The position numbers and the translations under genes are program-made. Under the pieces are notes generated by a model, which was not told the origin of the DNA, did not search any database, and was given only the letters and a program-made list of their open reading frames with translations. Below are positions 14,720 to 36,413 of a stretch of 61,919 nucleotides of DNA, piece after piece. The stretch is from assembly GCA_013287475.1 (NCBI GenBank), contig JABDDT010000010.1, positions 1 to 61,919 of the forward strand. The letters run 5' to 3'. The stretch's first letter is position 1. Each line of letters begins with the position of its first letter. Origin of the DNA: Bacteroidota bacterium (GTDB lineage Bacteria; Bacteroidota; Bacteroidia; Chitinophagales; Chitinophagaceae).

Positions 14720-17700
14720 ATGAATAAGCTATATGCGGGAGTCCTGCTTCTTCTTTCTGTATTCTTTTGTCAAAATTTAAAGGCTGCCCGATTCTGGATT
14801 TCAGCCTCATCATCCAACTGGAATAATACGGCCAACTGGTCAGCCATATCAGGCGGTGTAGGTGGCGCATCTGTTCCCGGTGTTGGAGACGATGTCAATT
14901 TCGATGGTTTTGGTTTAGGCAGTTGCACAATCGATATGGCTTTTTCAGTAAAAAGCTTCACGGTTGCCACCGGATATTCAGGCACGATCAGCCAGGGAAC
15001 GAATTCCATTACAACGGTCAATGCCGCCAGTTTTTCCGGCGGAACATTCACAGGTGGTTCAGCTAATATTACCATCGGCACCACTTTTACACTCAATGGA
15101 ACGGCATTTACATCCACCAGCGGAATCCTGGAAGTAGATGGAGCTACGGCTGCATTTACGGCAGCAGGCTTTGTGCACAACTCCGGAACGGTGAGGCTGA
15201 ACAGTTTTGGCGGACTTGCGCTGACAGGCATCAATCCCACTTTCTTTATATTGGAGTTTGTTGGCCGCGCGAACACCTATACTTTGTCTGGCACTGGTAA
15301 TATCACGGTCTTAAATAGTTTGAATCTAACGGGTACGCAGTTTTATAATATAATGACAGGTATCATCGATGTAAAAGGAAATATCAACAGTTCAAATACA
15401 GCGACGGGTAGCGGAGGTGATGCAACGATCAATATCAATGGAAACAGTGCTCAGACATTTACCGGAAGTACGACGGCTGGCGCCGGCGCGATTCCGCAGT
15501 TAAATATAAATACAACAGGAACGCTGGCGCTGGTAAATTTCCCTGCTGTCTCCAACAACTTTACCTATACCGCCGGAACAGTTAACCCGGGTACATCCAC
15601 TTTCTGTTTCACGCACGGAAATGTGGGCGCCTATTCAATCACCGGTACCCTGACATTCAACAGTATTTCATTCCCTGTCAACACCTCACTGTTAACCCTG
15701 ACGATTGCCAGCACCATTACTGCAACGGCAGACCTCACCATGGCAGGAGCAGGTAATCTTGTGCTGAATACAGGCTCGATCAATGTGAATGGAAATATTA
15801 TTTTGACGAATACCGGAAACGGAGGAGGTGGATCGGCGACAATCAATATCGTCGGGGCCGGTGCCGAAAACCTGGATGGAACAGCGATCACCGTTAACCA
15901 AAGTCGTTTACCCATTTTGAATATCAACAAACTCACCGGAACCCTTTCATTGCTCGGCAATATTTCATTCTCTGCGAATGTGACATACACGGCAGGTACG
16001 ATGGCACCGGGTACCTCCAACTGCTATGTCGTTAATAATTTAACTTTTACAGGAAGTTTTTCTTTATACAATCTATTTATCGAGCCAGCAGGAAATACAA
16101 CAGTGACTGTAGCAGCGGCCAGTGTGGTTACGGCCACTAATACGCTCGATCTGGAAAATGCCGGGAACCTGATCAACATCAACACCGGCACGATCGCAGT
16201 GCAGGGAAATATCATTGACAACAACACAAATATAACCGGTGGCGGCACCGGTACGATCCTTATCAACGGCGCCGGTGCACAGACAATCACCACTTCAGGT
16301 GTCATCGACCAGGGAAGGTTTCCGGCGGTGACGATCAGTAAACCCTCGGGTACACTTACGCTTCCAACGCTGATGACTGTCAGGGGAAACTGGACTTATA
16401 CGGCGGGCACCATCGATGCTACAACCAATAGCTCAACGGTGGTTTTTAATAACACCATGAATATAACGGGCACGCATACCCTGAATAATATCACATTCGA
16501 TGGCAGTAATAACTGGACTTTTACGACAGCTGTCGGTACAACGGTGACCGTACTTGGAAATATAAACATGATCGGTTCCAGCAATATCACCCTGAATACC
16601 GGAACGTATAACCTGGACGGCAATCTTGTATTAACAAATACAGGAGCGGGAGGCGGAACTTCGGATATCGCATTTGTTTCAGCTGTCAACCAATCTATCA
16701 TCAGCTCCTTATTGATAAACCAAAACTGTTTACCTGCTATTACAATCAATAAACCAGGTGGAACTCTTTTGTTTCCGTTACTCATTACAGTTAAGGGTAA
16801 TTGGACCTATACTGCCGGAACCCTGGATGTTACAACAAATAATTCAACGGTGGTATTTGCCAGCCCTTTGGGGAGCGGTGCCTTTGCGTTAACCGGCAGC
16901 CATTCCCTTAACAATGTAACGTTTGAAGGCAATAACAACAATACAGCCAATGTAAATACAGGAACCATCCTTACCGTAACCGGAACCCTGTCTACCATTG
17001 GAGCATTCAACGTTTTTATAAACACAACGATTACAGGTGCTACCGCCATCCAGGCACAGGGTAATATTTCGATTAATAATACCTCCGTTTCGGGTGGAGG
17101 TACGGGGCTGATACTGATCAATGGAGCGGGATCCCAGTTATTTTCCGGAAACTCTCCCGCCTCTCAGGGATTAATGCCTTTTATAACCATTCAGAAATCA
17201 ACAGGAGTTCTTACTATGAGCGGGATCATTTCAGAGAGCCGGGATTGGACTTATATCAGTGGAACGGTCGATGCAACAACAAATACAAGCAGCCTGGTTT
17301 TTGGTGGTAACAATCTCACGATTACAAGCGCAGGAATGAATTTTTATAATGTCACATTTTCTGCAAGTACCAGCACACTTGCAAATAATTTTTCTGTTAA
17401 TAACAATCTGTCCATTGGCGGACTTTCGGTTTTGGCTGCGGCTTCCAATACAATCAACCTCGGAGGGAAATGGACTAACTGGGGAACCCTGGGTTTTAAT
17501 GAAGCAACCAGCACGATAAATTTTAATGGGACTGCCCTTCAAACCATCACAACGCCGGGTGGTGAGAATTTTACAAATGTCATCGTCAATAATTCTGGTG
17601 CTGGTATTCAGTTAGAAAATAATGTACAGGTTGCAACAACATTAACTATGACGGCCGGTAATATTGATCTGAATACAAATTCCCTCACACTTGGACTCAC

Positions 17701-18754
17701 TGCAGTCAACAATGGAACACTCACGAGGACCTCAGGAACCATCATCAATACCGGATCTTTTATCCGCTGGTTCAAAACCGGCACGATTGCCACCGGATCT
17801 GCCGCGGGTCTCTTTCCCATGGGAACTGCTGTTGATTACCGTCCCATATTTATTTCCGCGCCTCTGCTGGGTCCAACAACCGGAGGTACAGTCACGGTAG
17901 GATATAATGATGCTACGACCAATTCAGTTGTATCCTTTGCAGACGGACTTTTTACCGTTGTAGTTCGAAAAGATTTAAACTGGGCAATGTCAACCGCAGG
18001 TCTTGCCGGCGGATTATATAATATGCAGATACAGGGGACGGATTACGGCCTTATCGGCGCCGTCTCCGATCTGCGCCTAACGCTGGTAAATAGTGTGGTC
18101 GGGGTTGCCGGAGTAAATGCAGGAACTGTTTCCAATCCGCAGGTTAACCGGACCGGTCTTTCAGTAGCCAATCTTTCGAATACATTTTATATGGGATCAG
18201 TCAATGCGGTGAGTTCACCATTGCCCGTCACCCTGGTTTCTTTTACAGCTAATTTATCCGGTCAGCGTGTGGATCTCAAATGGGAAACAGCCATTGAAAC
18301 AGATAATGATTATTTCACGGTGTTGCGCTCAAAAGACGGGCTGCAATGGGAAACCATCGCGCGTGTAAATGGTAAAGGCAATTCTGCTTCCAACAGTTTC
18401 TATGAAACCTTTGATGACAATCCTCTCAGCGGACAATCATTTTATAAACTGGAAAATACTGATTTTGATGGCCGGGTTTATTTTTCTCCGGTTGTCCTGG
18501 TGAATAAGGGAAGTGAACCTGATCAGGTCTCCTTATATCCTAATCCCGCTTCCGGTACTTTACTCATTACCCGTTACGGCAATGATTCATACAGCATTGA
18601 AGTCTTTAATAGCCTGGGGCAGTTAATGCAGGTCGTTCCCAATAATATTTCTGCAAAAACTTTGGATGTATCGGGTCTGCCCGCAGGTGTTTATTTTATA
18701 CATGTATTGTTTCCATCTTATGCACTGACGAAAACAGTGGTTATAAGGAGATAA
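14720..18754 (+). CDS. Giant repetitive T9SS type A-secreted surface protein
   Basis: A 1344-residue exported protein: signal peptide to about residue 22 (NLKAA), then a Thr/Asn/Gly-rich beta-rich body, and a C-terminal type A sorting domain (SLYPNPASGTL and LPAGVYFIHV) of about 75 residues for the type IX secretion system. The body contains about five repeats of roughly 140 residues, marked by a W/F-TY-x-AGT motif near residues 279, 419, 556, 693 and 840, each preceded by a GN-I-x-N-T-G-GGG and IN-x-x-G-A segment. The domain before the sorting signal (LPVTLVSFTANLSGQRVDL) is common in such proteins. Likely a surface or extracellular adhesin or sheath protein. Its stop overlaps the convergent carbamoyltransferase gene by 14 bases. 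Confidence 0.85.
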   Translation: MNKLYAGVLLLLSVFFCQNLKAARFWISASSSNWNNTANWSAISGGVGGASVPGVGDDVNFDGFGLGSCTIDMAFSVKSFTVATGYSGTISQGTNSITTVNAASFSGGTFTGGSANITIGTTFTLNGTAFTSTSGILEVDGATAAFTAAGFVHNSGTVRLNSFGGLALTGINPTFFILEFVGRANTYTLSGTGNITVLNSLNLTGTQFYNIMTGIIDVKGNINSSNTATGSGGDATININGNSAQTFTGSTTAGAGAIPQLNINTTGTLALVNFPAVSNNFTYTAGTVNPGTSTFCFTHGNVGAYSITGTLTFNSISFPVNTSLLTLTIASTITATADLTMAGAGNLVLNTGSINVNGNIILTNTGNGGGGSATINIVGAGAENLDGTAITVNQSRLPILNINKLTGTLSLLGNISFSANVTYTAGTMAPGTSNCYVVNNLTFTGSFSLYNLFIEPAGNTTVTVAAASVVTATNTLDLENAGNLININTGTIAVQGNIIDNNTNITGGGTGTILINGAGAQTITTSGVIDQGRFPAVTISKPSGTLTLPTLMTVRGNWTYTAGTIDATTNSSTVVFNNTMNITGTHTLNNITFDGSNNWTFTTAVGTTVTVLGNINMIGSSNITLNTGTYNLDGNLVLTNTGAGGGTSDIAFVSAVNQSIISSLLINQNCLPAITINKPGGTLLFPLLITVKGNWTYTAGTLDVTTNNSTVVFASPLGSGAFALTGSHSLNNVTFEGNNNNTANVNTGTILTVTGTLSTIGAFNVFINTTITGATAIQAQGNISINNTSVSGGGTGLILINGAGSQLFSGNSPASQGLMPFITIQKSTGVLTMSGIISESRDWTYISGTVDATTNTSSLVFGGNNLTITSAGMNFYNVTFSASTSTLANNFSVNNNLSIGGLSVLAAASNTINLGGKWTNWGTLGFNEATSTINFNGTALQTITTPGGENFTNVIVNNSGAGIQLENNVQVATTLTMTAGNIDLNTNSLTLGLTAVNNGTLTRTSGTIINTGSFIRWFKTGTIATGSAAGLFPMGTAVDYRPIFISAPLLGPTTGGTVTVGYNDATTNSVVSFADGLFTVVVRKDLNWAMSTAGLAGGLYNMQIQGTDYGLIGAVSDLRLTLVNSVVGVAGVNAGTVSNPQVNRTGLSVANLSNTFYMGSVNAVSSPLPVTLVSFTANLSGQRVDLKWETAIETDNDYFTVLRSKDGLQWETIARVNGKGNSASNSFYETFDDNPLSGQSFYKLENTDFDGRVYFSPVVLVNKGSEPDQVSLYPNPASGTLLITRYGNDSYSIEVFNSLGQLMQVVPNNISAKTLDVSGLPAGVYFIHVLFPSYALTKTVVIRR

Positions 18755-20582
18755 GTGACGGGTGTAATTGTTTTTGATCTTTCTTATCAAATAAATAGTT
18801 TCCAATTACGAGCAAATCCATTTGGGTTCGCATGAATCCCAAATAGGCGTCTTCCGCATTGCAAACAATGGGTTCCCCTCTTACGTTAAATGAAGTATTA
18901 ATAAGCATTCCGTGACCTGTTATCTTTTTAAATTCATGGAGCAGCTTCCAGAATTTCGGATTGGTTTTCTTGTCAACCGTTTGCACTCTGGATGTAAAAT
19001 CAACATGAGTTATTGAAGGGAAATCGGATCTCAGATGATTCAACATTTCACTTAAATTCATATCGTAATATTTTTCAGGAAGTAATTTTCTGAATTCATC
19101 CCGCAACAGAAAAACAAAAAGCATATAGAACGAAGGTATTCCGGGAGTGAAATATTTGTGAACATCCTCCAGAAGAACAGCAGGTGCGAAGGGTCTGAAT
19201 CCTTCCCGAAATTTGATCTTTAAATTAATTATTTTCTGCATTTCAGGATTCCTGGGATCACCCAGAATACTTCTGTTTCCGAGGGCACGCGGGCCAAATT
19301 CCATCCTGTCCTGAAACCAGCCTACAACATTTCCCTCAGCTATTTTTTTACTGACTACGGACAGCATATGATCGAAATTTTCAAAATACTTATAATCCGG
19401 TTCATACTTTCTTAAGTGATTTAAAATTTCCTTGTCTGTAAAACAAGGCCCCAGATAAGATCCGTTCATATGATCAGTATTTGGAATCAACTTCCTTTCT
19501 TTTTTTGACGGAATATAAAAAGCCGCCAGAGCTGCTCCCAGCGCCCCTCCTGCATCACCCGCTGCAGGCTGAATCCAGATTTTATCAAATATGCCGGTCT
19601 CCAATATTTTAGTATTGGCCCTGCAGTTTAAAGCAACACCACCAGCCATGACTAAATTTTTACTTTGAGTTAAAGTTTTTGCTGTATTCGCCATCGCAAC
19701 AACAATGGATTCAGTAATTTCCTGAATGGCCAAAGCGAGATTTATATGTTCGCGGGTAATCTCTGTTTCAGGTTTTCTCCTGGCTAACCCCAGAAGCAAT
19801 TCTAATTTCCTGTCATTCGTCATCTTTAATTTAGTCGCAAAATCAAAATAGTCCATATTTAATAAGATGGACCCATCCTCCCTGATATCAACCAGGTTTG
19901 CAAGAATTTTATTTTTGAATTCTGTTTTTTGGTCAGATGCTGGATTTCCGTAAGGAGCAAGCCCCATTAATTTATATTCCCCGCTATTTACTGTAAAACC
20001 CAGATAATAAGTAAAAGCTGAATATAAAAGTCCGACCGAATGCGGAAAACGCAGTTCCTTAAATACTTTTATTTGATTTCCATTTCCTTCGCAGATACTC
20101 GCTGTAGCCCATTCGCCCACACCATCAATAGTTAATATGGCCGCTTCCTCAAATGGGGAAGGATAAAAAGCACTGGCCGCGTGGGACAAATGATGCTCTG
20201 TAAATAAAATGGCAGGGGTTTTCCCTTTTCCCTGCTTAAATTTATTTAGTAAAAGTTTCTTTATGTAAATCTTTTCCTTAATCCAAACCGGTACGGATGT
20301 TATGAAATTCGATAAACCTTTTGGGGCAAATGAATGATAGGCTTCCAGTAATCTTTCAAATTTTAATAATGGCTTATCATAAAATGCAACTACTGTCAGG
20401 TCTTCTATTTGAATTCCCCCCTCCTGCAAAACATAGGCAATGGCATTTTCCGGGAATGAAGAGTCATGTTTTTTTCTGGTAAATCTTTCTTCCTGGGCAG
20501 CCGCTATGATATCACCATTAATAATTAAAGCTGCTGCGCTGTCATGATAAAATGCTGAAATTCCCAGGATGATTTCCGCCAT
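18741..20582 (-). CDS. O-carbamoyltransferase, NodU/CmcH/SxtI family
   Basis: A 613-residue enzyme that moves a carbamoyl group from carbamoyl phosphate, via a carbamoyl-adenylate, to a hydroxyl. The N-terminal Kae1-like domain shows GISAFYHDSAAALI, EERFTRKKHDSSFPENAI and the metal-site His pair in TEHHLSHAASAFY; LTIDGVGEWAT and MAGGVALNCRANTKI follow. The C-terminal domain has FGPRALGNRSILGDPR and NTSFNVRGEPIVC. Length equals that of SxtI (about 612). It is the last gene of a minus-strand set with DUF5989, SxtJ-family and SGNH/TPR genes. The acceptor is unknown; a surface glycan, lipid or exported metabolite is more likely than a toxin. Confidence 0.92.
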   Translation of the reverse strand: MAEIILGISAFYHDSAAALIINGDIIAAAQEERFTRKKHDSSFPENAIAYVLQEGGIQIEDLTVVAFYDKPLLKFERLLEAYHSFAPKGLSNFITSVPVWIKEKIYIKKLLLNKFKQGKGKTPAILFTEHHLSHAASAFYPSPFEEAAILTIDGVGEWATASICEGNGNQIKVFKELRFPHSVGLLYSAFTYYLGFTVNSGEYKLMGLAPYGNPASDQKTEFKNKILANLVDIREDGSILLNMDYFDFATKLKMTNDRKLELLLGLARRKPETEITREHINLALAIQEITESIVVAMANTAKTLTQSKNLVMAGGVALNCRANTKILETGIFDKIWIQPAAGDAGGALGAALAAFYIPSKKERKLIPNTDHMNGSYLGPCFTDKEILNHLRKYEPDYKYFENFDHMLSVVSKKIAEGNVVGWFQDRMEFGPRALGNRSILGDPRNPEMQKIINLKIKFREGFRPFAPAVLLEDVHKYFTPGIPSFYMLFVFLLRDEFRKLLPEKYYDMNLSEMLNHLRSDFPSITHVDFTSRVQTVDKKTNPKFWKLLHEFKKITGHGMLINTSFNVRGEPIVCNAEDAYLGFMRTQMDLLVIGNYLFDKKDQKQLHPSLISL

Positions 20583-20588
20583 TGCATA

Positions 20589-20738
20589 TTAAAATAATGT
20601 ATATATTAAGGGAGCTAAAGCAGAAGTGCCGGTAGCAATTATAAGTACAGCTAACAGCAGCAGGATCAATATAAGAGGTATCAGCCAGAATTTTTTTCTG
20701 GTCCTGAGAAATAGAAATAATTCTTTTAAAAACTCCAT
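20589..20738 (-). CDS. DUF5989 small membrane protein (SxtK-like)
   Basis: A 49-residue protein begins with ATG at 20738 (MEFLKELFLFLRTRKKFWLI) and ends LAPLIYTLF. It has a short basic amphipathic N-terminus, a single transmembrane helix (PLILILLLLAVLII) and a conserved small C-terminal tail. This is the DUF5989 pattern found beside carbamoyltransferases and SxtJ proteins. It ends six bases before the start of the carbamoyltransferase and starts 20 bases after the end of the SxtJ-family gene, clearly within the operon. It may recruit the carbamoyltransferase to the membrane (inference). Confidence 0.85.
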   Translation of the reverse strand: MEFLKELFLFLRTRKKFWLIPLILILLLLAVLIIATGTSALAPLIYTLF

Positions 20739-20758
20739 AAAGTATGGGAATTAATAAT

Positions 20759-21157
20759 CTAAAATGTATTTATGAGATCATTATCATTAAAGACATGATC
20801 ACGAATTGTCATAACCGAATGACTGCTTTTTTTAAACTGCTTTAATTTTAAATTATCATATCCGGCAATCCTTCTTATAAGTCCGATGGGAATTACAATG
20901 ATAAAAAAAATTCCTCCCAGCAGTATGGAAGAGCTGATGGTTCCTAAAATCTTACCCAGGCCAAACCAGCAGTAAGCGAAGGGATGAAATACAATGGGCA
21001 GAAGAAACGTTAAAAGAGTTAATACGATAACCGCTTTCATATAATTGTAATCTTTGTAACGCAAAGCCAGAAAGGATAAAATTAAAACTGTTACCAATCC
21101 AAACTCCTTTGTCTGCTCTTTGGAAATTTTAAATCCTCCTCCATTGAATTTTTTCAT
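20759..21157 (-). CDS. SxtJ-family membrane protein
   Basis: A 132-residue protein with three or four hydrophobic helices and the conserved FHPFAYCWFGLGKILGTIS, IPIGLIRRIAGYDNLKLKQF and VMTIRDHVFNDNDL segments. The size and these motifs match the SxtJ family, first named in the cyanobacterial saxitoxin cluster but present in many carbamoyltransferase clusters. It has no known biochemical activity. The gene ends three bases before the SGNH gene ends upstream in transcription order, and it is followed by the DUF5989 gene. Confidence 0.82.
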   Translation of the reverse strand: MKKFNGGGFKISKEQTKEFGLVTVLILSFLALRYKDYNYMKAVIVLTLLTFLLPIVFHPFAYCWFGLGKILGTISSSILLGGIFFIIVIPIGLIRRIAGYDNLKLKQFKKSSHSVMTIRDHVFNDNDLINTF

Positions 21158-21159
21158 TC

Positions 21160-23172
21160 TTAACCCTTTTTAATTTGCTCAAGTAAAGCTAATGCTTCTT
21201 TGTTTTTGGGATCAGCTTTTAAAATTTTTTCAATATATTTTGACGCTCCTTGCTTGTTTCCCATCGTCATATATTTAGTTGCAATCAGGTTTAATATAGG
21301 TAAGCTCGAAGAGTCCAGTGCCATTGCTTTCTGAAGGTTGATAATTTCACCTGCGTATTTCCTTACCGGCAAAAAGTTTACATTAGAAGTATTGTTCTGA
21401 ATGGCATAATCAAGATATGGCATGGCATCTCCCGGCCGGTCAATCCTGAGGTAAATTACAAACAATGTTTTGGCATAATCAAATGTAGGTGATATCGCAA
21501 AAGCCCTTTTAAAATAAAAAGCAGCTTCTTCGTAATAACCCATCTTACCGTAAAGATTAGCCGTCTTATCATAAAAATAAGTTTCGGTTGGATTTTCAAG
21601 GACCAGTAATTCCATAATTGTTTTCGCCTTTGGTAAATCCTTCATGTCAAAATAATAATTATAGAGTTCTTCCATTGCATTTGGCCATAGCCTGTGCTGA
21701 TTAACGACTGAATAGGCCATTTTTTCTTCGACAGAAACAACTTTTGGAGAATCACTGGAAATTCCTTCATTGAAAGGCCAGCTTCGCTTAAGATTAGAAA
21801 TTCTATATACACCAACCAGGGAATCAACTTCGGTTACAGGCATGGTCCGCATTAATTCCTTCAAATTCATTTCATTTGTATTCGCCGGAGGAATGATATG
21901 CTCATTTTTTAATGCCTTATAAAAAGCATCAGATATGATGGCATATCCTGTTAAATTCGGATGAACATGTTCCAGGATGAGTCTATTTCCAATAATATGA
22001 TTTGATGAAACTGAATCAAATGCTGCCTCAGTATCTACTAAGTGTGCCTGTTTGTATTTATCACATAATTTCTTGATCGCATCATTGATCTCCGAAGGAG
22101 CTCTGAACCGAAGACCATCCAGATCTTTGGCCCGGATAAAATATTTTTTTGCCTGAATATAATCACCTTCACCATAAGACAGCTTACCCAGATAATAATT
22201 ACATAGAGCGTGACCATCGTAAATCTGATCCGCCACTTTTAAAGACCGGGCCGCCTGGTCCCAATCTCCGGTATTAAAGGCGCTTACTCCTTCTCTGAAA
22301 TTTTTATTAAACCCAGGTAACTGCGCACTATCAGGAAAAATGCTCACAAAAGGTTTCAGATCCATTTCATTGCAAACGAGGTTGCTTATAAATACCGGAA
22401 TTCCGTTTTTATTAAATAATTCAAGGGTTTTATCCATATTCGAATTGAACTGTTCAATTCCCTTTTTATAAAGTGATGAACCATACTGAATCTGTTGATC
22501 AGCGACCATCCTCTGCATCAATGTCTGGCCCGAAAATTCTTTCTTCAGGTCTGATGAATTCTTTGCCCTTTCAAATAAACCGGTTAACAATTGGACTATT
22601 CTTAATTTTCGCAACTTAAGCACCAGCTGAATGATCCCAGAATTATTTCCAACACTATTGGTAGAACCGACTCCTAATGTCCCGTAATATTCATTATGTC
22701 CTGAGTATATCATAACAGCGTCAGGCTGGTATTTAACTACTTCTTTTGCAAATCCGAACACAGTATAAGAGTTAACAGCTGTCAGGGATAAATTGATTAT
22801 TTCAAATTCTCTGTCGGGAAATTCATGCATCAACCTGTACAATAACCATCTGTGAAATGACCCGTTGTGAAAATATGGATACCCGATCGTAGTGGATTCT
22901 CCCAATACAAAGATTCTTAATGTAGATTTTTCTTTATTCTTTTTGAACAGTTCACTGTTTCCTGTAGGGGCAAATGCCGGATTGATAAAATATCTTTTTG
23001 CGGCTGCCGGGTTTAATACCAGGTAATCAGGCCTGTCAGGAGCTTCCATAAAAAGATCCAGATTATTGCCGTATTGAAAAATCCGGAGTGAAAATTCTAA
23101 CAGAATCAAAATCAGTACAGGCAGCAGTATGGCGATCGTTTTGAAAGCTAGTTTTTGTAGAGATCTTTCCAT
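21160..23172 (-). CDS. Membrane-anchored SGNH/GDSL hydrolase with TPR repeats
   Basis: A protein of 670 residues from the ATG at 23172; an ATG ten codons upstream is also possible. An N-terminal helix (TIAILLPVLILILLEF) anchors it. Block I of the SGNH fold is IFVLGESTTIGYPY, YSGHNEYYGTLG gives the block III Asn, and EHVHPNLTGYAI supplies the final His. Between them and at the C-terminus are tetratricopeptide-like repeats (about residues 300-360 and 540-660; MKDLPKAKTIMELL, YYEEAAFYFKRAF). It is the first gene of the carbamoyltransferase set, two bases before the SxtJ-family gene. It could be an acyl or carbamoyl esterase acting on the same product (inference). Confidence 0.88.
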   Translation of the reverse strand: MERSLQKLAFKTIAILLPVLILILLEFSLRIFQYGNNLDLFMEAPDRPDYLVLNPAAAKRYFINPAFAPTGNSELFKKNKEKSTLRIFVLGESTTIGYPYFHNGSFHRWLLYRLMHEFPDREFEIINLSLTAVNSYTVFGFAKEVVKYQPDAVMIYSGHNEYYGTLGVGSTNSVGNNSGIIQLVLKLRKLRIVQLLTGLFERAKNSSDLKKEFSGQTLMQRMVADQQIQYGSSLYKKGIEQFNSNMDKTLELFNKNGIPVFISNLVCNEMDLKPFVSIFPDSAQLPGFNKNFREGVSAFNTGDWDQAARSLKVADQIYDGHALCNYYLGKLSYGEGDYIQAKKYFIRAKDLDGLRFRAPSEINDAIKKLCDKYKQAHLVDTEAAFDSVSSNHIIGNRLILEHVHPNLTGYAIISDAFYKALKNEHIIPPANTNEMNLKELMRTMPVTEVDSLVGVYRISNLKRSWPFNEGISSDSPKVVSVEEKMAYSVVNQHRLWPNAMEELYNYYFDMKDLPKAKTIMELLVLENPTETYFYDKTANLYGKMGYYEEAAFYFKRAFAISPTFDYAKTLFVIYLRIDRPGDAMPYLDYAIQNNTSNVNFLPVRKYAGEIINLQKAMALDSSSLPILNLIATKYMTMGNKQGASKYIEKILKADPKNKEALALLEQIKKG

Positions 23173-23323
23173 ACAGGCAAATTCGAAATTGAAAACATTC
23201 AAATCAAAGTATAATCACAGATATGCAGGATACTATATGTGCAATTAACATTTAGCTGATTAACCAGACACTTAATATTTAATTAATTTGGGAAAATCAC
23301 CTCTTTTTTAATTTGAAAACTAA

Positions 23324-25950: not shown

Positions 25951-28095
25951 TCAGCGCATCAGTATCACTGTACCACTGACTACATTTTTCTTCCCTCCTG
26001 AAAATTGATATGTGCACATCCAAACATAAGCGCCTGTTTCCTGCGCAGCGTTTCCAATCATTCCATCCCAGCCTTTCCCGGGATCACTGGTTTTAAAGAT
26101 CAGTTGCCCAAAGCGGTTATAAATTTTAAACTGATAGATCACAGGCGTCGCTATAATAACTGGTTTAAAAATGTCATTTAATCCGTCTTTATTTGGTGTA
26201 AATGCATTCGGAAAAAATATTTCCATCGGGCAGGATTTTGTTTTAATCTGGATGGAATCGTTACCAGCACACCCGTATTTGTCCACAACATATAATGAAT
26301 ATTTTCCCGCTTCTCCGATTTGTAACGAATTTCCAACCCCGCCTGTACTCCATTTATACATTTCAAAAGGACGCACAGGCCTTATATCCAGGATATCGCC
26401 GATACATATGGTCGTATCTGCCGGCAAAAAAGAAGCGGGTAGCGGTTCAATGGAACCAACCCTTACCGTATCGGTATCAGAACATCCATTTGGATCAGTT
26501 ACGTTCACCCAATAAGTGCCTGAATCAGCAACATCCATAGTTTGCATAACTGATCCATCCTGCCAGAGATAGCTTATGTAACCAGTCCCTGCATCCAGTT
26601 TCATAATATACCCGGAACATAAAACGGTGTCCGAGGGCAAATTAACTTTTGACATCTTTGATGAATCGCAACAACTTAAATATTGAGGACATAATAAACG
26701 TGATTCAAGTGACTCGTCATTCAGACTCAGTGGAAAATCATTAACCATTAATGAAAGGTCGTTATTCAGACTCCATGACATCGGAACCAGGCTGATCTGA
26801 TCTGACTGCAGGCTGAGATTGGTGGCGCCGGAATTACATCCCGCACCCAGGGAATCAAGTTTCAAAAAACTAAGCTCATTAAATCCATCGGCATTTAAAC
26901 CACTTCCAATCCCTGCTATTCCATTTGACGGGGCAGGCGCCAGCTGGTTCCATCCTGAAAAACCCATGTTCAATATTGAAAAATCATACTGCCACGCGAT
27001 TTGTTTATTTCCATCAACACGCATAATTATATTCTTGTGTGCTGATCCGGATATTCCGGATGGCTGGTAAAAATAAATTCCATTATCCGGCCCTACTATA
27101 ATATTTTCTTTACCATTCAACGATCCATAAGGATTGTTTACTAAAAAACTGCCACCGGTATTTCCTTCATTGTCCAAAAAAATAAAATCATTGAGTTGAT
27201 TTTGAGAATAACTATTTATCAGCAAACTATCATTGTAACTATGAATATCCAGGAAAGTAAGTGGCGGCTTCGCCGGATCATTTTTCATGGTCCGGATTAA
27301 CTGTCCGGTATTTTTATCCAGCTGAACAAAGAATGATCTCAGGATATCGAAAGGCGTCACAGCCTGATAAACAGAACCTGTTGCATATATATAATTACCT
27401 TTTTCTAAAATACCGCCTATATCATAGTAAGCATCATTTTCAACGCTTAGTTTTCTGCCCCATACGATACGGCCTGACTGATCTATTTTTATTATGGAAA
27501 TGCCGGAAGGGCTGCCAGACAAAGGGAAAGATCCGATCTCTATTGCGAATCCCCCGTCCGATGTTTCGCAGACAGCAGAAAAATAGTTCATCACATTGGT
27601 TCCGTCGGATAAGGAATGTGCCCAAACTTTATTCCCCGATTTATCCAGTTTAAAAATATTTAAGTAACGGGGATAATTGTCCTGTTGCGACTGAAAGGGA
27701 AATGCGCTTACTAGATATCCTGAATCAGATGTGGAAATGACAAACTGTATAACCTCTTCCTGTCCCGGAGTCATCGCTTTTGACCAGTCCACACAACCTT
27801 TTCCGTCAATATGAAAAAGAGAAGTAGTCCTCGTTACAATATTATTTACAGATGGTTTGTAAAAGTCTCCGGTAAGCAGGTATCCATTTGATTTATCCTC
27901 CGTGATGCAAAATGGTTCCATAGCCTGATCCGGAGGATTATATTGTTTTTGGAAATTGCTGCCATCTGATATAATGGTATCTGCTTCAGGTGAATATTTT
28001 GCTTTTGACACACGTGTATCATGAACATTTAAAGAATAAATATGAAGTGAAAGAATCAGCGCAAATACCAACAATATGGTTCTCTCATAATGCAT
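25951..28095 (-). CDS. T9SS type B-secreted surface protein
   Basis: A 714-residue exported protein from the ATG at 28095, chosen because it opens a signal peptide (MHYERTILLVFALIL) and avoids overlap with the preceding gene. The body contains propeller-like repeats (GGFAIEIGSFPLSG, KIDQSGRIVWGRKL) that recall beta-propeller lectin-type proteins, followed by two Ig/PKD-like modules with SGTYWVNVTDPNGC and AGKYSLYVVDKYGC. The last about 90 residues (FFPNAFTPNKDGLNDIFKP to the end) are the gliding-motility/CHU_C type B sorting domain. It probably sits on the cell surface. It is the fifth gene of the same-strand run that starts with SusC. Confidence 0.85.
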   Translation of the reverse strand: MHYERTILLVFALILSLHIYSLNVHDTRVSKAKYSPEADTIISDGSNFQKQYNPPDQAMEPFCITEDKSNGYLLTGDFYKPSVNNIVTRTTSLFHIDGKGCVDWSKAMTPGQEEVIQFVISTSDSGYLVSAFPFQSQQDNYPRYLNIFKLDKSGNKVWAHSLSDGTNVMNYFSAVCETSDGGFAIEIGSFPLSGSPSGISIIKIDQSGRIVWGRKLSVENDAYYDIGGILEKGNYIYATGSVYQAVTPFDILRSFFVQLDKNTGQLIRTMKNDPAKPPLTFLDIHSYNDSLLINSYSQNQLNDFIFLDNEGNTGGSFLVNNPYGSLNGKENIIVGPDNGIYFYQPSGISGSAHKNIIMRVDGNKQIAWQYDFSILNMGFSGWNQLAPAPSNGIAGIGSGLNADGFNELSFLKLDSLGAGCNSGATNLSLQSDQISLVPMSWSLNNDLSLMVNDFPLSLNDESLESRLLCPQYLSCCDSSKMSKVNLPSDTVLCSGYIMKLDAGTGYISYLWQDGSVMQTMDVADSGTYWVNVTDPNGCSDTDTVRVGSIEPLPASFLPADTTICIGDILDIRPVRPFEMYKWSTGGVGNSLQIGEAGKYSLYVVDKYGCAGNDSIQIKTKSCPMEIFFPNAFTPNKDGLNDIFKPVIIATPVIYQFKIYNRFGQLIFKTSDPGKGWDGMIGNAAQETGAYVWMCTYQFSGGKKNVVSGTVILMR

Positions 28096-28114
28096 TTTAT
28101 ACGGCCCTTCTGCT

Positions 28115-29386
28115 TTATTTATCCGGCAAAGGTGGTAAAGGAATATTTCCATCCAATGGGATTTCTTTCTTTAACATCCTCCCGGCCATTCCTGTCAGAA
28201 ATAAATAATAGTCACTTGGAATTTCCGGTTCGAACGATTCGAATGTACTAAGCCCGACAGGAGGACTTTTTGAAGTTTTAAAAATGGCTGTTCCTTCATC
28301 TATTTCATCGAACATGGCAATATATATCATTTCCGAACCTTCTTCTATAGCTCCAAAAAGCTGCTGCCAGTAGAATCGTCCCCGGTTGCGGGAGATCGGT
28401 GCCTTGTTACTTTCAGGATGCATGTTGTGCCAGCTGAATCCTGGAAAAACCACGGGTGCATAATCCAGTTTATTTTGTTTGCACCATATGATATCATCTT
28501 TGATCCTGCTTTTGAACACAGGATAAGTTTCTTCATTAAATCTCCCGACAAACCAGGGTCGGATAATATCTGCTTTATGAATTAAAGTATGGAGATAAGG
28601 ATCTTTTTCAGTATCCTTTCCAAAATCCCTCCAGTAAGCCGGTACGCCCAGAAGTATCGAACAGCCACCATAAACCGGATCATATTTTAGAAAGTCTATT
28701 ATTCTCTCAATAGATTTCAAATTATTTGTTCTGTCCGGAAATCCGACTCCCCATAAAGCCACCAGAGGTTTATGGCGATGATACAGGTAAGTCTGATGCG
28801 GTCCGCGTGAAGCTATTTTCAAACTGTCTACCAGGTGTTTCCAGTCATTGATGATGACCAGCCAGTCTTTATTCTCTTCATTCACGCCCGAAAAATCATA
28901 CATAACAGCAATGGCCCTGTGAAAATATCGGGACGCATTCAGCGCATTATTCAGAAGATGATCGTCGTGCTTAAGATTTTCAGGATTTTTAATGGCGGTC
29001 ACGGATCGCTGAACAAATACGCCGTCCACTCCATAATCTTTCATCCACTTGAAATGAACATATACACTTTGACTATCGTAAGAACTGAATATATAAGCCG
29101 GTTGTCCGTTAGCAATCTTAAATGGTGTTTCATACACTTTCTGATATTCCTTTACTTCCGGCCAAAAATCAACTTTACAATTTCCAGGCTCAAACACACC
29201 GTTCCTCGCATAGTGATTCCAGCCCATATTAGCCCCGTCGGTAGGGGCATTGAACCATCCCTGGTAACCGGCCATGATCAGTCCTTTAAACGTTTCAAAG
29301 GAAGAATTCTGGCTGTATTTCGGCTGTGCACAAACCATTGAAATCAGGAAACTTCCTGCCAGAAACATCATGAATCTTTTGATCAT
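28115..29386 (-). CDS. Glycoside hydrolase family 71/99-like protein
   Basis: A 423-residue secreted protein: signal peptide to about residue 20 (SMVCAQ), then an (alpha/beta)8-type domain. GLIMAGYQGWFNAPTDGANM at the start and WMKDYGVDGVFVQR, RAIAVMYDFSGV and MIYIAMFDEIDEGTAIF match the GH71/GH99-like group. GH99 members cleave internal alpha-mannosides and GH71 alpha-1,3-glucans. The candidate acidic pair is the Glu/Asp in MFDEIDEGTA. It follows GH92 by 16 bases and is part of the SusC/SusD locus, so it fits an alpha-mannan degrading set. Substrate remains inference. Confidence 0.85.
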   Translation of the reverse strand: MIKRFMMFLAGSFLISMVCAQPKYSQNSSFETFKGLIMAGYQGWFNAPTDGANMGWNHYARNGVFEPGNCKVDFWPEVKEYQKVYETPFKIANGQPAYIFSSYDSQSVYVHFKWMKDYGVDGVFVQRSVTAIKNPENLKHDDHLLNNALNASRYFHRAIAVMYDFSGVNEENKDWLVIINDWKHLVDSLKIASRGPHQTYLYHRHKPLVALWGVGFPDRTNNLKSIERIIDFLKYDPVYGGCSILLGVPAYWRDFGKDTEKDPYLHTLIHKADIIRPWFVGRFNEETYPVFKSRIKDDIIWCKQNKLDYAPVVFPGFSWHNMHPESNKAPISRNRGRFYWQQLFGAIEEGSEMIYIAMFDEIDEGTAIFKTSKSPPVGLSTFESFEPEIPSDYYLFLTGMAGRMLKKEIPLDGNIPLPPLPDK

Positions 29387-29402
29387 CTGTGCTGCTTTTA
29401 CA

Positions 29403-31691
29403 CTATTTATTTTTTACAACCCCGTCTCCCTCAACTCCCCATTTCTTATTTGGTTTAGGTCCCATTTCCAATTCAAGCGTCCCGCCGTTCATGAGTTGAT
29501 CATGCGTAAACCAGGGTGTTTTTAATTGAACCCCGTTGAAGCGACCACTTTGTATATATTTATTTATCTGAGAACAATGATGTGCGAGAACCGTGAATTT
29601 TTTTCCGTTTTCCAATGAAATCGTCACTTTACTGAAAACCGGACTGCCAATTGTATATACCGGGATCCCTGGTGTTAACGGGTAAAATCCCATGGAGGAA
29701 AAAACCACGAAGGCTGACATACCGCCTCCGTCTTCATCTCCGGGAATTCCAAATATGTCGTCTTTAAACCAGGTGTCTAAAAGAAGTCTGATTTTTTGTT
29801 GCGTCTTCCAGGGAGAATTGGTATAGTTATATAAGTAAGGAATATGAAAACTCGGCTCATTCCCCATGGAGAATTGGCCTACCAATGCTGTTGCATCCGG
29901 GAATTTACTCCAGAACGCATATTTTGAACGGCCCAGGTCCTCCCGGAATAATTTATCCAGCCTCGTTTCGAATGCATCCTTACCATTCATCAGGTTGATC
30001 AGGCTGGGAATATCCTGTTGCACCTGCCACATGTATGTCCACCCATTATTTTCATCAAAATAATCCCTGCCACCCTGGCCTCCGTCAAATGCCGGATCTA
30101 TATTTATCCAGTTTCCTTTGTCATCCTTCGGTAAAAAAAACATCTGTTCCTTATTCCATAAATTCAGGTAATTCCTGCTCCATTTATAAAAAAGTTCATA
30201 GTCATTCATTTTCCCCAGTTCTTTCGCCAGCTGGGAAGCCGCCCAGTCATCATAAGATGCTCCCAGTGTTACAGCGACCGACTGCCTTTTTTCAAAAGGA
30301 TGAACCTGGTCTACAGTCTCTTTGGTACCGGGAGGAAGTGCCGGGAAATAACCATGGGTTCTGTAAAAATCATCGAGTACTGTCTTTTCCCCGTTACGCC
30401 ATGGTAACAGTGTGGCGGAAACCGCATTTTTTTTGATGCCCTCATAAGCCGTTTGGATGTCAAAATTTCTCAGCCCTTTTCTGTAGGCATCCAAAAAAAT
30501 GATGGAAGAGTGAAATCCGTTCATGCAGGCATAATCGCCAAACAGGACAGGAAATGTAGGCATCCAGCGGCTTTGTTCATACATGCGAACATATGACTGA
30601 AGCATGTCCTCTTCCAGGGAAGGATGTAAAATCATCCGGAGCGGATGTAATGCCAGATATGTATCCCATGACCAGTCATCAACATAAAATGCCCTGGCAT
30701 CTTTGTTAATTTTTCCGTTGTATCCGCTGAAATAAAATGAGTCTTCACTGATGTTAACCATTCTTTCAGAGCAACGGTATAAAGCAGTATAAAAGGAACG
30801 TCTCTGACTAGCTGTTCCGCCTTCAACATGTATTTGTGAAATCAGATCAGACCATTTTTGTTCTGCATCAGATTTCACTTTCGAAAAACTTTTTTCATTT
30901 ATTTCATGCATGTAATTATCCTTCGCCTGATGCTCACTGATAAAACTGATCGCATATCTGAATTCAACCGATTTACAGTTTGAAGGGAAATTAATATAGG
31001 CCTTAACTGATTCGCCGGAAATGTCATGATCGTTTTTCGGCTGGCCATTTTCTATAAACCCTGTTTTCCCTTCAGAGGAAAATTCTCCGAACATATATAT
31101 CTTAACATCTCCGTGCCAGGTTTCCATTCCGGAAATTGCACTGGCAGAAATGAAGTGAAATGAAGAAGCGCCATTACTGTAATTACTAAACAGGAGTGAT
31201 TTATTTTCTCCCTGAGGAAATGAAAACCGGTAAATCCCGGTCTTTCGGCCTGGTGAGAACTCAACTGTTACTTCATCATTCAGTAAATAAGTGGAATAAT
31301 ACCAGGGCCTCGTAATTTCAAGATCATGATCATAAGGCATTTTCTGGTTCCAGTTCGACACACTGATCTCCCTGACCGTGGGTTGAATTCCAAAAACAGC
31401 GCCCAGCCTGTGTGAGACGATAGTAAGTGGAAAACTCGCTATCTGATCGTCGAGATAATCCTTCCGTATTGGATAAACTCTTATCATCTGGTTCGGCAGA
31501 TAAGCAGCTGGCTGCGTCGGCTCCAGCAGTTGCGCAACATTTCCAATGGTAGGGTCGATGTACTGAAGCAGGTTGTTTTTGGGTGCCGAGGTATCAGTCT
31601 TTTTAAAGTTACCGGCATTTACAAATCCCGATAGAATAGAAAGCAGTACCGATAAAACAACTGTCTTGTTCTTAAACAATAAACTGATCAT
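29403..31691 (-). CDS. GH92 family alpha-mannosidase
   Basis: A 762-residue secreted protein from the ATG at 31691 (a TTG five codons earlier is possible); signal peptide to about residue 22. The N-terminal domain begins with LLQYIDPTIGN and the C-terminal (alpha/alpha)6 domain holds the GH92 motif GDEDGGGMSAFVVFSSMGFY. GH92 enzymes are calcium-dependent exo-alpha-mannosidases with inverting mechanism, acting on N-glycans or yeast mannan in Bacteroidota. The spacer before it contains a terminator hairpin, so its expression is expected below that of SusC/SusD. Confidence 0.9.
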   Translation of the reverse strand: MISLLFKNKTVVLSVLLSILSGFVNAGNFKKTDTSAPKNNLLQYIDPTIGNVAQLLEPTQPAAYLPNQMIRVYPIRKDYLDDQIASFPLTIVSHRLGAVFGIQPTVREISVSNWNQKMPYDHDLEITRPWYYSTYLLNDEVTVEFSPGRKTGIYRFSFPQGENKSLLFSNYSNGASSFHFISASAISGMETWHGDVKIYMFGEFSSEGKTGFIENGQPKNDHDISGESVKAYINFPSNCKSVEFRYAISFISEHQAKDNYMHEINEKSFSKVKSDAEQKWSDLISQIHVEGGTASQRRSFYTALYRCSERMVNISEDSFYFSGYNGKINKDARAFYVDDWSWDTYLALHPLRMILHPSLEEDMLQSYVRMYEQSRWMPTFPVLFGDYACMNGFHSSIIFLDAYRKGLRNFDIQTAYEGIKKNAVSATLLPWRNGEKTVLDDFYRTHGYFPALPPGTKETVDQVHPFEKRQSVAVTLGASYDDWAASQLAKELGKMNDYELFYKWSRNYLNLWNKEQMFFLPKDDKGNWINIDPAFDGGQGGRDYFDENNGWTYMWQVQQDIPSLINLMNGKDAFETRLDKLFREDLGRSKYAFWSKFPDATALVGQFSMGNEPSFHIPYLYNYTNSPWKTQQKIRLLLDTWFKDDIFGIPGDEDGGGMSAFVVFSSMGFYPLTPGIPVYTIGSPVFSKVTISLENGKKFTVLAHHCSQINKYIQSGRFNGVQLKTPWFTHDQLMNGGTLELEMGPKPNKKWGVEGDGVVKNK

Positions 31692-31762
31692 TAAGAAAAT
31701 TTTCAAGTCTGCAATAGGATCCCGTCAAAAACAATTGAATTAATTCCCCTCCGTAAAAAAGC

Positions 31763-31789
31763 TTAACCATGCACGTTATGCATGGTTAA
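31763..31789 (-). terminator. Intrinsic terminator between SusD and GH92
   Basis: A perfect 11-bp stem (TTAACCATGCA with its reverse complement) and a five-base loop, followed on the minus strand by the sequence GCTTTTTT. It lies 26 bases after the SusD stop codon. Partial termination here would make more SusC/SusD transcript than enzyme transcript, as is typical of these loci. Confidence 0.75.
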
Positions 31790-31814
31790 ACTTCACTCAC
31801 AGGATTTTATATTA

Positions 31815-33344
31815 TCAATATCCGGGATTCTGGGTCCATTGCGGATTCTTGAGCATTTCATTTATCGGGATAGGTGCGTAGTATTTGTTTTGAAGGACAA
31901 CAGTCGGACTGATCGGATTCTCCAGAGGATTCCTCGCTGCTACAATTTGCGGAAGTAATTGAAGCCTGACAATATCAAACCATCTTAATCCCCACTCAGC
32001 TGCAAATTCATACGCTCTTTCGTACACCACAGAATCCCTGAACGCTATCTGGCTAAGACCCGCCGTCAGCGGTTGTTCGCCTGCGCGGGCCCTGACAGTA
32101 TTTATCGCAGCATACCCTGCTGCAGTTGGTCCGCTGCCAGCCATATCAGATGCTTCGGCATAATCCAATAATACCTGTGGATACCTGATCACATCGTTTG
32201 TTTTATTCGTGCTTGGATTCATGGCAATGAGCGTTGAATCTGTTTCCAGGCAACCCTCATTATTAATCGCCTGTCTGAATTTCCTGTAGAATGGATGCTG
32301 ATTCCGGGTCAAAGGTGAATTGTAGGGAACAAGAAGAAATGTTTTATTCGGCTGGAGAAGTTTGAGTGTAGTATAAAATTCTTCATCCGTTCTTTTACAA
32401 ACCGGAGCCCCCAGGTAAAAATTAATTTCAGGATAGAATTCTTCCCATCCGAAATTTCCATCTAACCCATATTCTTCCCATGGCATGGAGCAATCACCAA
32501 AAAAACGATCCGGGTTTCCGCCGCTGACATTAAATTCCAAACCGAAAATAGATTCTGAATTATTATTCGTCTGGAATACCTGCGCATAATCGGGAACCAG
32601 CGTATATTGTCCGGACTGAATCACAGAATCTGCTTCAGTGGCTGCCATTGAATAATTGCTGGTTTGATTCAATGGCCATGTTGCCATGGTCATATATACA
32701 TCAGCTAAAACGGATCTGGCTGAATTTTGAGTGGCCTTCCCCGGTTGTCCGGGAAAACTGGTGGGAAGCAGACTGGCGGCCATTTGCAGATCACTTACGA
32801 TTTGCTGGTAAACTACGCTGACGGAATCTCTTGCGGGCCTGTAGTCAGGTCCGACTTCGGTAGTTATTACGGGTACAGGTCCGAATGTTCTTACCAGAAG
32901 ATAATAACTCCAGCCTCTTATAAAATAGGCCTGGCCTGCGGCTCCGTTTTTTGAGGCTGCATCGCTGGAGACTTTCTGATAATTTGCAAGCACATTATTA
33001 CACTGGTATATGGCACCCCATGGTGTACCCCACTGACTGTGCGCTATAGCGTTATTACCTGAACTCGCATTGAACTGATCAAAACTTCTCTGATCTGCCT
33101 TTCCGAGGTTTGGATCGGCTGTCAGATCATCTGAACCAAAAAAAGAATACAGGTGGAAATCGAAGGCGTAGCCGCCATCCACGACCATTCCCTGGTAGAT
33201 GGCGGTAACCGCAGCATCCAGATCAGATTGGGTTTGGAAATAATTTCCCGGTGTAAGCGTTGCCTTGGGATCTTCTTTGAGTTTCGAACATCCCAGGAAA
33301 GCTACGGCGATGATTATAAATGTTATGAAGACTTTTATTTTCAT
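31815..33344 (-). CDS. SusD/RagB family glycan-binding lipoprotein
   Basis: A 509-residue lipoprotein from the ATG at 33344 (MKIKVFITFIIIAVAFLGCS); an ATG ten codons earlier at 33374 is an alternative. The lipobox is FLGC. Conserved SusD features are YFQTQSDLDAAVTAIYQGM at the N-terminus, AYFIRGWSYYLLVRTFGPVPV, SVLADVYMTMATWPL, VRARAG and the ending YYAPIPINEMLKNPQWTQNPGY. SusD proteins cap the SusC transporter on the cell surface and bind oligosaccharides. The gene follows susC closely, so they are co-expressed. Ligand probably mannose-containing, judged from the neighbouring hydrolases. Confidence 0.93.
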   Translation of the reverse strand: MKIKVFITFIIIAVAFLGCSKLKEDPKATLTPGNYFQTQSDLDAAVTAIYQGMVVDGGYAFDFHLYSFFGSDDLTADPNLGKADQRSFDQFNASSGNNAIAHSQWGTPWGAIYQCNNVLANYQKVSSDAASKNGAAGQAYFIRGWSYYLLVRTFGPVPVITTEVGPDYRPARDSVSVVYQQIVSDLQMAASLLPTSFPGQPGKATQNSARSVLADVYMTMATWPLNQTSNYSMAATEADSVIQSGQYTLVPDYAQVFQTNNNSESIFGLEFNVSGGNPDRFFGDCSMPWEEYGLDGNFGWEEFYPEINFYLGAPVCKRTDEEFYTTLKLLQPNKTFLLVPYNSPLTRNQHPFYRKFRQAINNEGCLETDSTLIAMNPSTNKTNDVIRYPQVLLDYAEASDMAGSGPTAAGYAAINTVRARAGEQPLTAGLSQIAFRDSVVYERAYEFAAEWGLRWFDIVRLQLLPQIVAARNPLENPISPTVVLQNKYYAPIPINEMLKNPQWTQNPGY

Positions 33345-33392
33345 TTTCTTATTTTTTATATATGATGTTTTCATTTCAGGCGATTTTAAATG

Positions 33393-36300: not shown

Positions 36301-36413
36301 GCCAGGGCCTTGCCGTGATCATCTGTAACCTTACCTTTTATCAACCGGTTTTGGGCAAACCCGTAAATACTAAGGCCAAATACCAGCAGTACCAGCAAAG
36401 GAAGTTTTTTCAT
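33393..36413 (-). CDS. SusC/RagA family TonB-linked outer-membrane receptor
   Basis: A 1006-residue TonB-dependent transporter from the ATG at 36413. Signal peptide to about residue 20; an N-terminal CarboxypepD_reg-like domain (GKALAGASITIKN) is followed by a TonB-box region and plug (VVGYGTQKKKDVTGAIS, YVIDGYIGGSIASINPGDIE, LKDASAGAIYGSRASNGVVI). The barrel ends NPRTYTIGFRVGF. It lacks the N-terminal extension used by FecR-type anti-sigma signalling. It imports oligosaccharides together with SusD. A 400-base divergent spacer upstream holds candidate operators. Confidence 0.94.
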   Translation of the reverse strand: MKKLPLLVLLVFGLSIYGFAQNRLIKGKVTDDHGKALAGASITIKNTAASTLSDSSGNFALSYSGNAKAQLVVTFIGYLNTELSIGNGNYFDVQLKQNAQTLNDVIVVGYGTQKKKDVTGAISVVKPDELGNRPIVKVEQALQGTAPGVAVQSTNGMPGTPLSVRIRGTNSITGSNEPLYVIDGYIGGSIASINPGDIESMEILKDASAGAIYGSRASNGVVIITTKSGHEGAARINLSAWFQKAEIAKDLDLMDAYDFANTVNIQNAAVGLPPGFTSAQLDGFKTNPGTNWQKALQQKPLVQNYEASVSGGSSHMSYFVSFNYLDQPGLILNQYYKKGSLRSNLDFRINDKLDLKFYIMTAIPSSRNTAYVGDTGDPFSSAAFWDPTKPVYDPTTGKLTLTSNYGTLSVSPVAQATNQAVDANSIDAVGTGVLTYHILKNLTFTSSNSYESQWGWTRSLFGLGTSQTVINGLSSGYASGNTNWLSAFQTSNFLTYNLLTGDHALTLTGLYEYSQATNQNINATASNLSTYALGYYNLGLGLTQQTTSGYSSSDLQSFMGRLNYSYKDKYLLTASIRDDGSSRLTTKYSTFPSVAVGWNVSKENFMENSRVFSALKLRASYGETGNQGIPPYSSIPVINTSNVGYYFDGSTLSISTPLGTPVATNLVWETTLQTDIGFDASFLNNRLNLSVDAYNKKISNLLFSYQTPAYLGGGSYQRNIGSIQNRGIEIGISGNPLNPHAGKLKWTTWFEMSFNDNKVLNLNGLDNVIVSGIGQPQQNISILKVGSPLGEFTGYQFLGTWKASEATEAAKYGNKPGDAKYTDVNGDGVINQDDYLPIGNGIPKMTWGFINDFNYGNFTLSFMFAGQNGAQIFSQTIAYTWGQAPGTRNATLEEATQMWTPKNETNVPAFSTTGSWPTNSSRFVYNANFVKLKNLSLNYSIPQSVLGNAKIHSVDVYISGQNLFTITKYPGYDPELTNAQNAMTQGVEMGVIPNPRTYTIGFRVGF

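Follow-up and report, generated by a model that had tools for sequence, protein, structure and literature searches.

Four adjoining genes on the minus strand of contig JABDDT010000010.1 from a Bacteroidota bacterium (Chitinophagaceae; assembly GCA_013287475.1), analysed as one stretch of 61,919 nucleotides that we call the window, encode a protein of the SGNH hydrolase superfamily, a membrane protein of the SxtJ family, a microprotein of the Pfam family DUF5989 and an O-carbamoyltransferase (CTase). We propose that they form an acyl-shuttle relay free of any membrane-bound O-acyltransferase (MBOAT), in which the CTase and SxtJ would hand a group to a tyrosine of DUF5989, from where it would pass to the serine of the SGNH protein and on to an outer acceptor; we regard this reading as evenly poised between right and wrong. 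The computed results behind it are the togetherness of CTase, SxtJ and DUF5989 (hereafter the triad), the conserved tail of DUF5989, its topology (from charge and one model), the SGNH link (from neighbourhood and fusion) and the existence of triads in genomes without an MBOAT match. The original prediction, made from the letters of the window, had placed genes of these families end to end on one strand with spacers of 2-20 bases. We confirmed both the arrangement (transcription order SGNH-SxtJ-DUF5989-CTase, or H-J-D-C, with the SGNH gene first and spacers of 2, 20 and 6 bases, respectively) and the assignments, which all lie above Pfam cut-offs, the matches of the two small proteins being significant. 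In an NCBIfam scan, none of the four proteins passed a curated cut-off, the best match of the CTase being NodU (139.8 bits versus 1000).

DUF5989 ends in a conserved tyrosine motif

The DUF5989 gene (20738-20589, minus strand; 49 aa, one transmembrane (TM) helix) matches PF19451 over residues 1-49 of 49 (2.4e-22; 79.1 bits versus a cut-off of 27). Its product ends in the hexapeptide LIYTLF, encoded at 20592-20609 (minus strand) with the stop codon at 20589-20591 directly after it and with Tyr46 as the candidate carrier. For the tail, 150 copies were taken with the Pfam profile from about 290 places listed (the 30 best and 20 hand-picked lower-scoring ones in each of three phyla), and four spurious ones were dropped. 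Tyrosine stood at position -4 in 144 of the 146 remaining tails and a strict FXYXXF C-terminus in 126, the copies having first been found by a profile that itself includes the tail. The first 30 Bacteroidota copies all ended in PFIY[TA][LI]F. Some deviating tails were conservative (LIYTMF, FIYTLY, YIYAMF); the less conservative ones (FQYDMY, FEYREY, FLYPNE, GAYPIW) came mostly from low-scoring Planctomycetota copies. The best 80 loci (see below) were kept out of the motif statistics because the search seed contains the tail motif; no other open reading frame (ORF) of at least 35 aa ended in FXYXXF in these loci (9946 ORFs, DUF5989 included in the total).

Lysine and arginine residues flanking the helix averaged 4.54 on the N side and 0.01 on the C side (80 copies), a charge asymmetry that, by the positive-inside rule, places the tail outside (N-in/C-out). 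As judged from its sequence, DUF5989 is predicted to be a single helix with its C-terminus outside. FXYXXF is described as an acyl-shuttle motif, the tyrosine of DltX and of the PatA C-terminus carrying an acyl group to an SGNH protein, and PatB uses an acetylated FIYANF peptide (PMC12148441). Full homology of DUF5989 to DltX or to MBOAT tails was not found (global profile alignment probability 3); DUF5989 may work like the acyl-shuttle proteins while not being a member of their families.

As a positive control, 61 MBOAT loci were examined, where the longest ORF ended in FXYXXF in 51 and had tyrosine at -4 in 55; in the remaining six, the MBOAT is probably not encoded by the longest frame. The 51 include the three MBOATs matched in the window's genome, which all end in FIYFQF and all lie outside the four genes, among which Pfam found no MBOAT. 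When 61 Bacteroidota genomes were searched with PF03062, no match was obtained in 12 of the 24 triad genomes, so the tail persists in genomes in which the search detected no MBOAT that could load it.

CTase, SxtJ and DUF5989 form a unit

The three Pfam families were searched in 296 genomes drawn evenly from the window's phylum (taken as Bacteroidota), and matches were found for DUF5989 in 106, SxtJ in 93 and Carbam_trans_C in 128 (loci and genomes are cited below by L and G numbers). All 93 genomes with SxtJ had both DUF5989 and CTase, and 103 of the 106 with DUF5989 had CTase (Fisher p 3e-63 for SxtJ with DUF5989 and 6e-51 for DUF5989 with CTase, relatedness uncorrected). After a recheck of the 10 Pfam misses with a wider profile, SxtJ was present in 103 of 103 genomes holding DUF5989 and CTase, its gene lying about 2 kb or less from DUF5989 in these 10 (L299, L010, L012, L016, L017, L018, L025, L307, L308, L309). 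The three DUF5989 genomes without CTase are G047, with an internal stop and near a contig end, and G140 and G273, with matches below the cut-off. Conversely, 25 genomes had CTase without DUF5989. Among 12 genomes behind named loci, Pfam SxtJ was matched in 11; it was present in seven of the eight genomes whose DUF5989 locus showed no SxtJ (L066, L090, L096, L098, L100, L101, L104, L106), the exception being L098. CTase, SxtJ and DUF5989 are a real unit.

The triad lay within 5 kb on one strand in 55 genomes, in 20 all three genes were present yet none were neighbours, and the remainder were partly linked. About 8 kb around DUF5989 in 19 of the 20 scattered-triad genomes held no CTase, SxtJ or SGNH gene, which indicates that the scattering is no contig-end effect on the DUF5989 side. 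The fullest case among the scattered genes is L276, where five genes were annotated and DUF5989 has parA-parB-like genes, two MacB-type permease genes and a ribose-5-phosphate isomerase gene as neighbours, as if it were a vertically inherited core gene beside housekeeping genes. Neighbours of similar size occur in L278, L279 and L281-L285 (L276 alone among these loci was scanned with Pfam), and three further scattered-triad loci have other neighbours.

The window's CTase gene (20582-18741, minus strand; 613 aa) encodes both halves of the enzyme in one protein (Carbam_trans_N 3.6e-94, Carbam_trans_C 6.9e-68), with nearly whole-length homology to the TobZ/GdmN/NovN family (E down to 3e-82). A quick tree was made of 104 CTases, 84 labelled module and 20 standalone (the latter including two second copies from triad genomes), hits shorter than 540 or longer than 720 aa (4 of 73) having been left out beforehand. 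One branch with support 97 held 81 module and two standalone rows, including the window protein, the cyanobacterial L082 and four dispersed CTases (L323-L326), and three module-labelled CTases (L036b, L066, L074b) grouped with the standalone ones. Labels changed four times over the tree compared to 18.4 in shuffles, none of 500 shuffles being as low; the long branches of the standalone CTases leave the exact edge of the module group unsure. Two module-clade CTases (L341, L342) come from genomes without a DUF5989 or SxtJ match (G211, G227), where either the partners were lost or they are too divergent to find.

The 80 best named loci were gathered with DUF5989 as bait, and their phyla were read from record titles, many of them metagenome bins. 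They cover Bacteroidota, several proteobacterial classes, Nitrospira, Nitrospina, Elusimicrobia, Omnitrophica, Sumerlaeota, Terriglobia, Phycisphaerales, Acidimicrobiia, Cyanobacteria, Latescibacteria and others. Whole-genome searches matched DUF5989 in 55 of 299 genomes from the phylum of a Burkholderiales locus and in 92 of 199 from that of a Phycisphaerales locus. A phage search gave no DUF5989 match, and a plasmid search gave two records.

SxtJ as a proposed adaptor

The SxtJ gene (21157-20759, minus strand; 132 aa) matches PF19588 (2.4e-7; 31.8 bits versus a curated cut-off of 24.4). In L071, CTase and SxtJ are encoded in one ORF of 773 residues. The last residue of SxtJ was aromatic in all 55 aligned proteins (F in 21, W in 21, Y in 13), often as PW, PY, PF or QF. 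Its three hydrophobic segments are flanked by positive charge at both ends (3.4 lysine or arginine residues at the N-terminus and 6.9 in the C-tail), a pattern that does not fit three plain TM helices. Given the L071 fusion and the co-occurrence with CTase and DUF5989, we propose that SxtJ may act as a membrane adaptor or passage between CTase and DUF5989.

SGNH genes adjoin some modules and are fused to DUF5989 in Planctomycetota loci

The SGNH gene of the window (23172-21160, minus strand) encodes 670 aa from its ATG, or 680 aa from an alternative TTG start at 23202, and matches Lipase_GDSL_2 (1.1e-8; 36.3 bits versus a cut-off of 32.9) plus TPR repeats. A hydrophobic N-terminal stretch precedes the SGNH domain, with the repeats between and after its active-site blocks GESTT at 91 (Ser93), GHNEY at 158 and EHVHPN at 401. 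The protein has the Ser of block I, the Asn of block III and the His of block V that define the SGNH/GDSL superfamily; the acid residue of its active-site triad is uncertain. In a Pfam scan of the 66 same-strand genes within 250 bases of 73 module blocks, Lipase_GDSL_2 was matched more often than any other family (18 genes); Lipase_GDSL was matched by 11 genes and ALGX by five. SGNH-domain profiles matched 25 of 126 adjacent or interleaved genes compared to 19 of the 597 remaining genes in these loci (odds ratio 7.5, p 1e-9); an SGNH gene adjoined or lay inside 24 of the 73 blocks, and 24 of the 25 genes were on the module strand. Hits obtained with the whole window protein (36 of 80 loci) were not counted because TPR-only proteins were matched (L106, L112). 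Among SGNH-linked loci, the direct one-strand order H-J-D-C was found in one (L107) and C-J-D-H in two (L060 and the cyanobacterial L082). Relatives of the window-type SGNH-TPR protein adjoin modules in L295, L302 (opposite strand) and L305, and in L286 one adjoins an isolated DUF5989 gene, with CTase and SxtJ elsewhere. Matches of the module SGNH profile include chains of AlgJ and AlgX. One of the 66 module-adjacent genes matches CPSase_L_D2 (6.7e-102), a possible local donor supply; this is a carbamoyl-phosphate synthase domain common also to other ATP-grasp carboxylases.

Fusions were sought in 20 Planctomycetota stretches chosen mainly for a long open frame ending in DUF5989. In 12 of these loci (L189-L200), one protein of about 510-530 residues combines SGNH, TM and DUF5989 parts; for L199 and L200, where the open frame runs upstream over the CTase, the sequence upstream of roughly the SGNH start was disregarded. 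The fusions adjoin CTase in 12 of 12 loci and SxtJ in 10, and the active-site Ser, Asn and His are kept in all 12. Three fusions were scanned with Pfam, of which L190 (GDSL_2, ALGX) and L200 (ALGX) pass the cut-off and L189 lies below it. The other eight long frames (L187, L188, L201-L206) were not counted, as several overlap the CTase in another frame and the rest have no SGNH match. An AlphaFold2 model of the L190 fusion (32-row alignment; pLDDT 86.9, pTM 0.82) has helices at 2-27, 398-417, 425-450, 453-491 and 495-515 and a short last helix at 521-527, the end at 526-528 falling below 50. In it, the SGNH domain is followed by four membrane helices, which return the tail to the same side as that domain, a placement drawn from the model and the alignment. 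Variant or tandem DUF5989-like microproteins, some directly after an SGNH-DUF5989 fusion, also occur in Planctomycetota (L253-L256; L189:2250-2381, L191:1793-1921, L197:3743-3925 and L206:4025-4516), with tails such as FVYDMY, FQYDMY, FEYREY and FVYSIF.

Discussion

In the proposed relay, the cytoplasmic CTase would use carbamoyl phosphate and ATP to activate a carbamoyl group, as its relatives TobZ and GdmN do; enzymes of the TobZ type form carbamoyl adenylate. SxtJ would anchor the CTase at the membrane, and SxtJ and DUF5989 might together form a passage with the CTase as its cap, through which the carbamoyl group would be loaded onto the FXYXXF tyrosine at the outer C-terminus of DUF5989. 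The resulting aryl carbamate would be passed to the SGNH serine, and the SGNH protein, as an extracytoplasmic terminal transferase, would carbamoylate an acceptor on the outer surface, probably a glycan or lipid. An aryl carbamate on tyrosine should be a good donor to a serine hydrolase, and the slow hydrolysis of carbamoyl-serine enzymes would suit a transferase. Tyrosine loading, carbamoyl cargo, passage through SxtJ and acceptor are parts of the relay that we infer. More broadly, the module may represent a route of envelope acylation additional to the two others, MBOAT-SGNH and AT3-SGNH, in which a soluble CTase on SxtJ sends carbamoyl across the membrane to the DUF5989 tyrosine and the SGNH protein places it on an outer polymer. 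Such a route would be found in a dozen or so phyla (by record titles), as a scattered core set in some lineages and with the saxitoxin cassette sxtIJKL as one borrowed case; about this wider claim we are slightly more doubtful than convinced.

Several observations weigh against the relay. Its weakest step is how the group meets the tyrosine, as the CTase is cytoplasmic and the tail is predicted outside, and SxtJ has no invariant MBOAT-like His, only W64, L80 and P90 being nearly invariant. The window's own tail departs from FXYXXF at the first position, where Leu replaces Phe. Pfam DltX gave no hit up to E 10 against 10 DUF5989 members, in a search where HMMER filters drop most weak hits, and the similarity of DUF5989 to MBOAT-tail profiles is confined to 13 columns at the motif (single-pair E 1.8e-4, local probability 48). 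The supposition that the four genes recur together elsewhere holds for the SGNH-linked blocks, but 49 of the 73 blocks have no adjacent SGNH gene, and none was found beside six Bacteroidota modules of the window's J-D-C order (L287-L292) or within 4 kb of DUF5989 in the 19 scattered triads where this gene stands isolated. Many plain hydrolases are likewise picked up by the module SGNH profile, and in G298 (Chryseobacterium, L098) DUF5989 adjoins an SGNH gene in a genome without a Pfam SxtJ match. A hydrophobicity scan after the SGNH domain gave four peaks in five of the 12 fusions and three in seven, which at face value would leave the tail on the opposite side from the SGNH domain; the fourth aligned segment is present in the three-peak fusions, below the scan threshold. 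The absence of SGNH genes near isolated DUF5989 and J-D-C modules and the split scan slightly lowered our confidence both in the relay and in the wider claim of a third route.

An alternative explanation is that the sole role of SxtJ and DUF5989 is to bring the CTase to the inner membrane face, where a lipid-linked or small substrate would be carbamoylated, and that the SGNH protein hydrolyses, or edits, the product. Part of this was in the original prediction, and recruitment is indeed plausible for SxtJ given the CTase-SxtJ fusion; esterase activity is common among SGNH proteins, a decarbamoylase role has been proposed for SxtL (PMC2679770), and the many blocks without an adjacent SGNH gene fit as well. 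It leaves unexplained, however, a near-invariant tail that is predicted outside and ends exactly three residues past the tyrosine, as well as the SGNH-DUF5989 fusions with both ends on one membrane side in the model. No support was found for editing, and the pairing of SGNH with an FXYXXF tail points to a transferase; we consider this alternative unlikely, if worth serious thought. The tail might instead serve for non-covalent docking, as a peptide guiding either the SGNH protein or SxtJ, with carbamoyl transferred in another way, and the aromatic terminus of SxtJ suggests that terminal aromatic tails may be docking signals. Docking has no obvious need for Tyr over Phe, and the tyrosine, conserved in 144 of 146 copies, varies less than the Phe positions on either side of it; we consider this explanation unlikely as well. 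We judge it very improbable that DUF5989 is a shuttle for acetyl or some other acyl group that an MBOAT with its gene elsewhere would load, and that the CTase modifies the same polymer independently. The three FIYFQF-tailed MBOATs in the window's genome would allow this, but half of the triad genomes searched gave no MBOAT match, most MBOATs examined carry their own tail (51 of 61), and all but three of the 106 genomes with DUF5989 also have CTase.

Among known systems, the proposed relay resembles Dlt (DltB-DltX-DltD) in pairing an SGNH protein with a membrane microprotein that ends in FXYXXF near the outer face (PMC12148441). Dlt serves the D-alanylation of teichoic acids, whereas the four genes here include no MBOAT or carrier protein, the proposed loader is a carbamoyltransferase, and DUF5989 has no detected sequence kinship to DltX. 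Similarly, in the MBOAT-SGNH acetylation systems PatA/PatB and AlgI/AlgJ/AlgX an FXYXXF tail (PatA FIYSSF, FIYANF) gives the acyl group to an SGNH protein (PMC12148441), but the tail here belongs to a separate microprotein or to the SGNH protein and not to an MBOAT. The likeness to sxtI-sxtJ-sxtK-sxtL of the saxitoxin cluster (sxt papers PMC2679770 and PMC2684587), noted originally, stands for the families, as a CTase, an SxtJ-family protein, a protein of about 54 residues (sxtK, 165 bp) and a GDSL protein occur together there (PMC2679770). It does not extend to gene order (H-J-D-C here, C-J-K-H for sxt I, J, K, L) or to the long TPR region of the SGNH protein here, and the comparison is one of family names, sizes and neighbourhood. 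From its size and place, SxtK would be a DUF5989 protein. Genes like sxtJ, K and L also stand together in the suomilide cluster, another cyanobacterial cluster (PMC10157211). On the ancestral status originally supposed for the module, our tree, which was built without SxtI, shows only that the cyanobacterial L082 CTase falls inside the module clade. TobZ, GdmN and NovN, whose homology to the module CTase is nearly whole-length, act on antibiotics; module CTases mostly belong to a clade tied to SxtJ and DUF5989, in a tree built without these three.

In the open-licence literature, DUF5989 appeared as a term in no paper searched, and no link was found between a carbamoyltransferase and SGNH plus polysaccharide, or between DltX, a microprotein or a shuttle motif and carbamoyl. 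If the relay is true, DUF5989, a Pfam family of unknown function, would be a shuttle and SxtJ an adaptor, extracytoplasmic O-carbamoylation would be a widespread envelope modification, loading of the FXYXXF tyrosine would not be exclusive to MBOATs, and the published guess of carbamoyl removal by the SGNH member would have to be reconsidered.

Near the module, the window also holds a SusD-like gene, a TonB-dependent receptor gene and a GH99-like gene (28115-36422), which resemble a glycan-use locus. Type IX secretion tails were seen on the proteins at 14720-18754 and 25951-28152.

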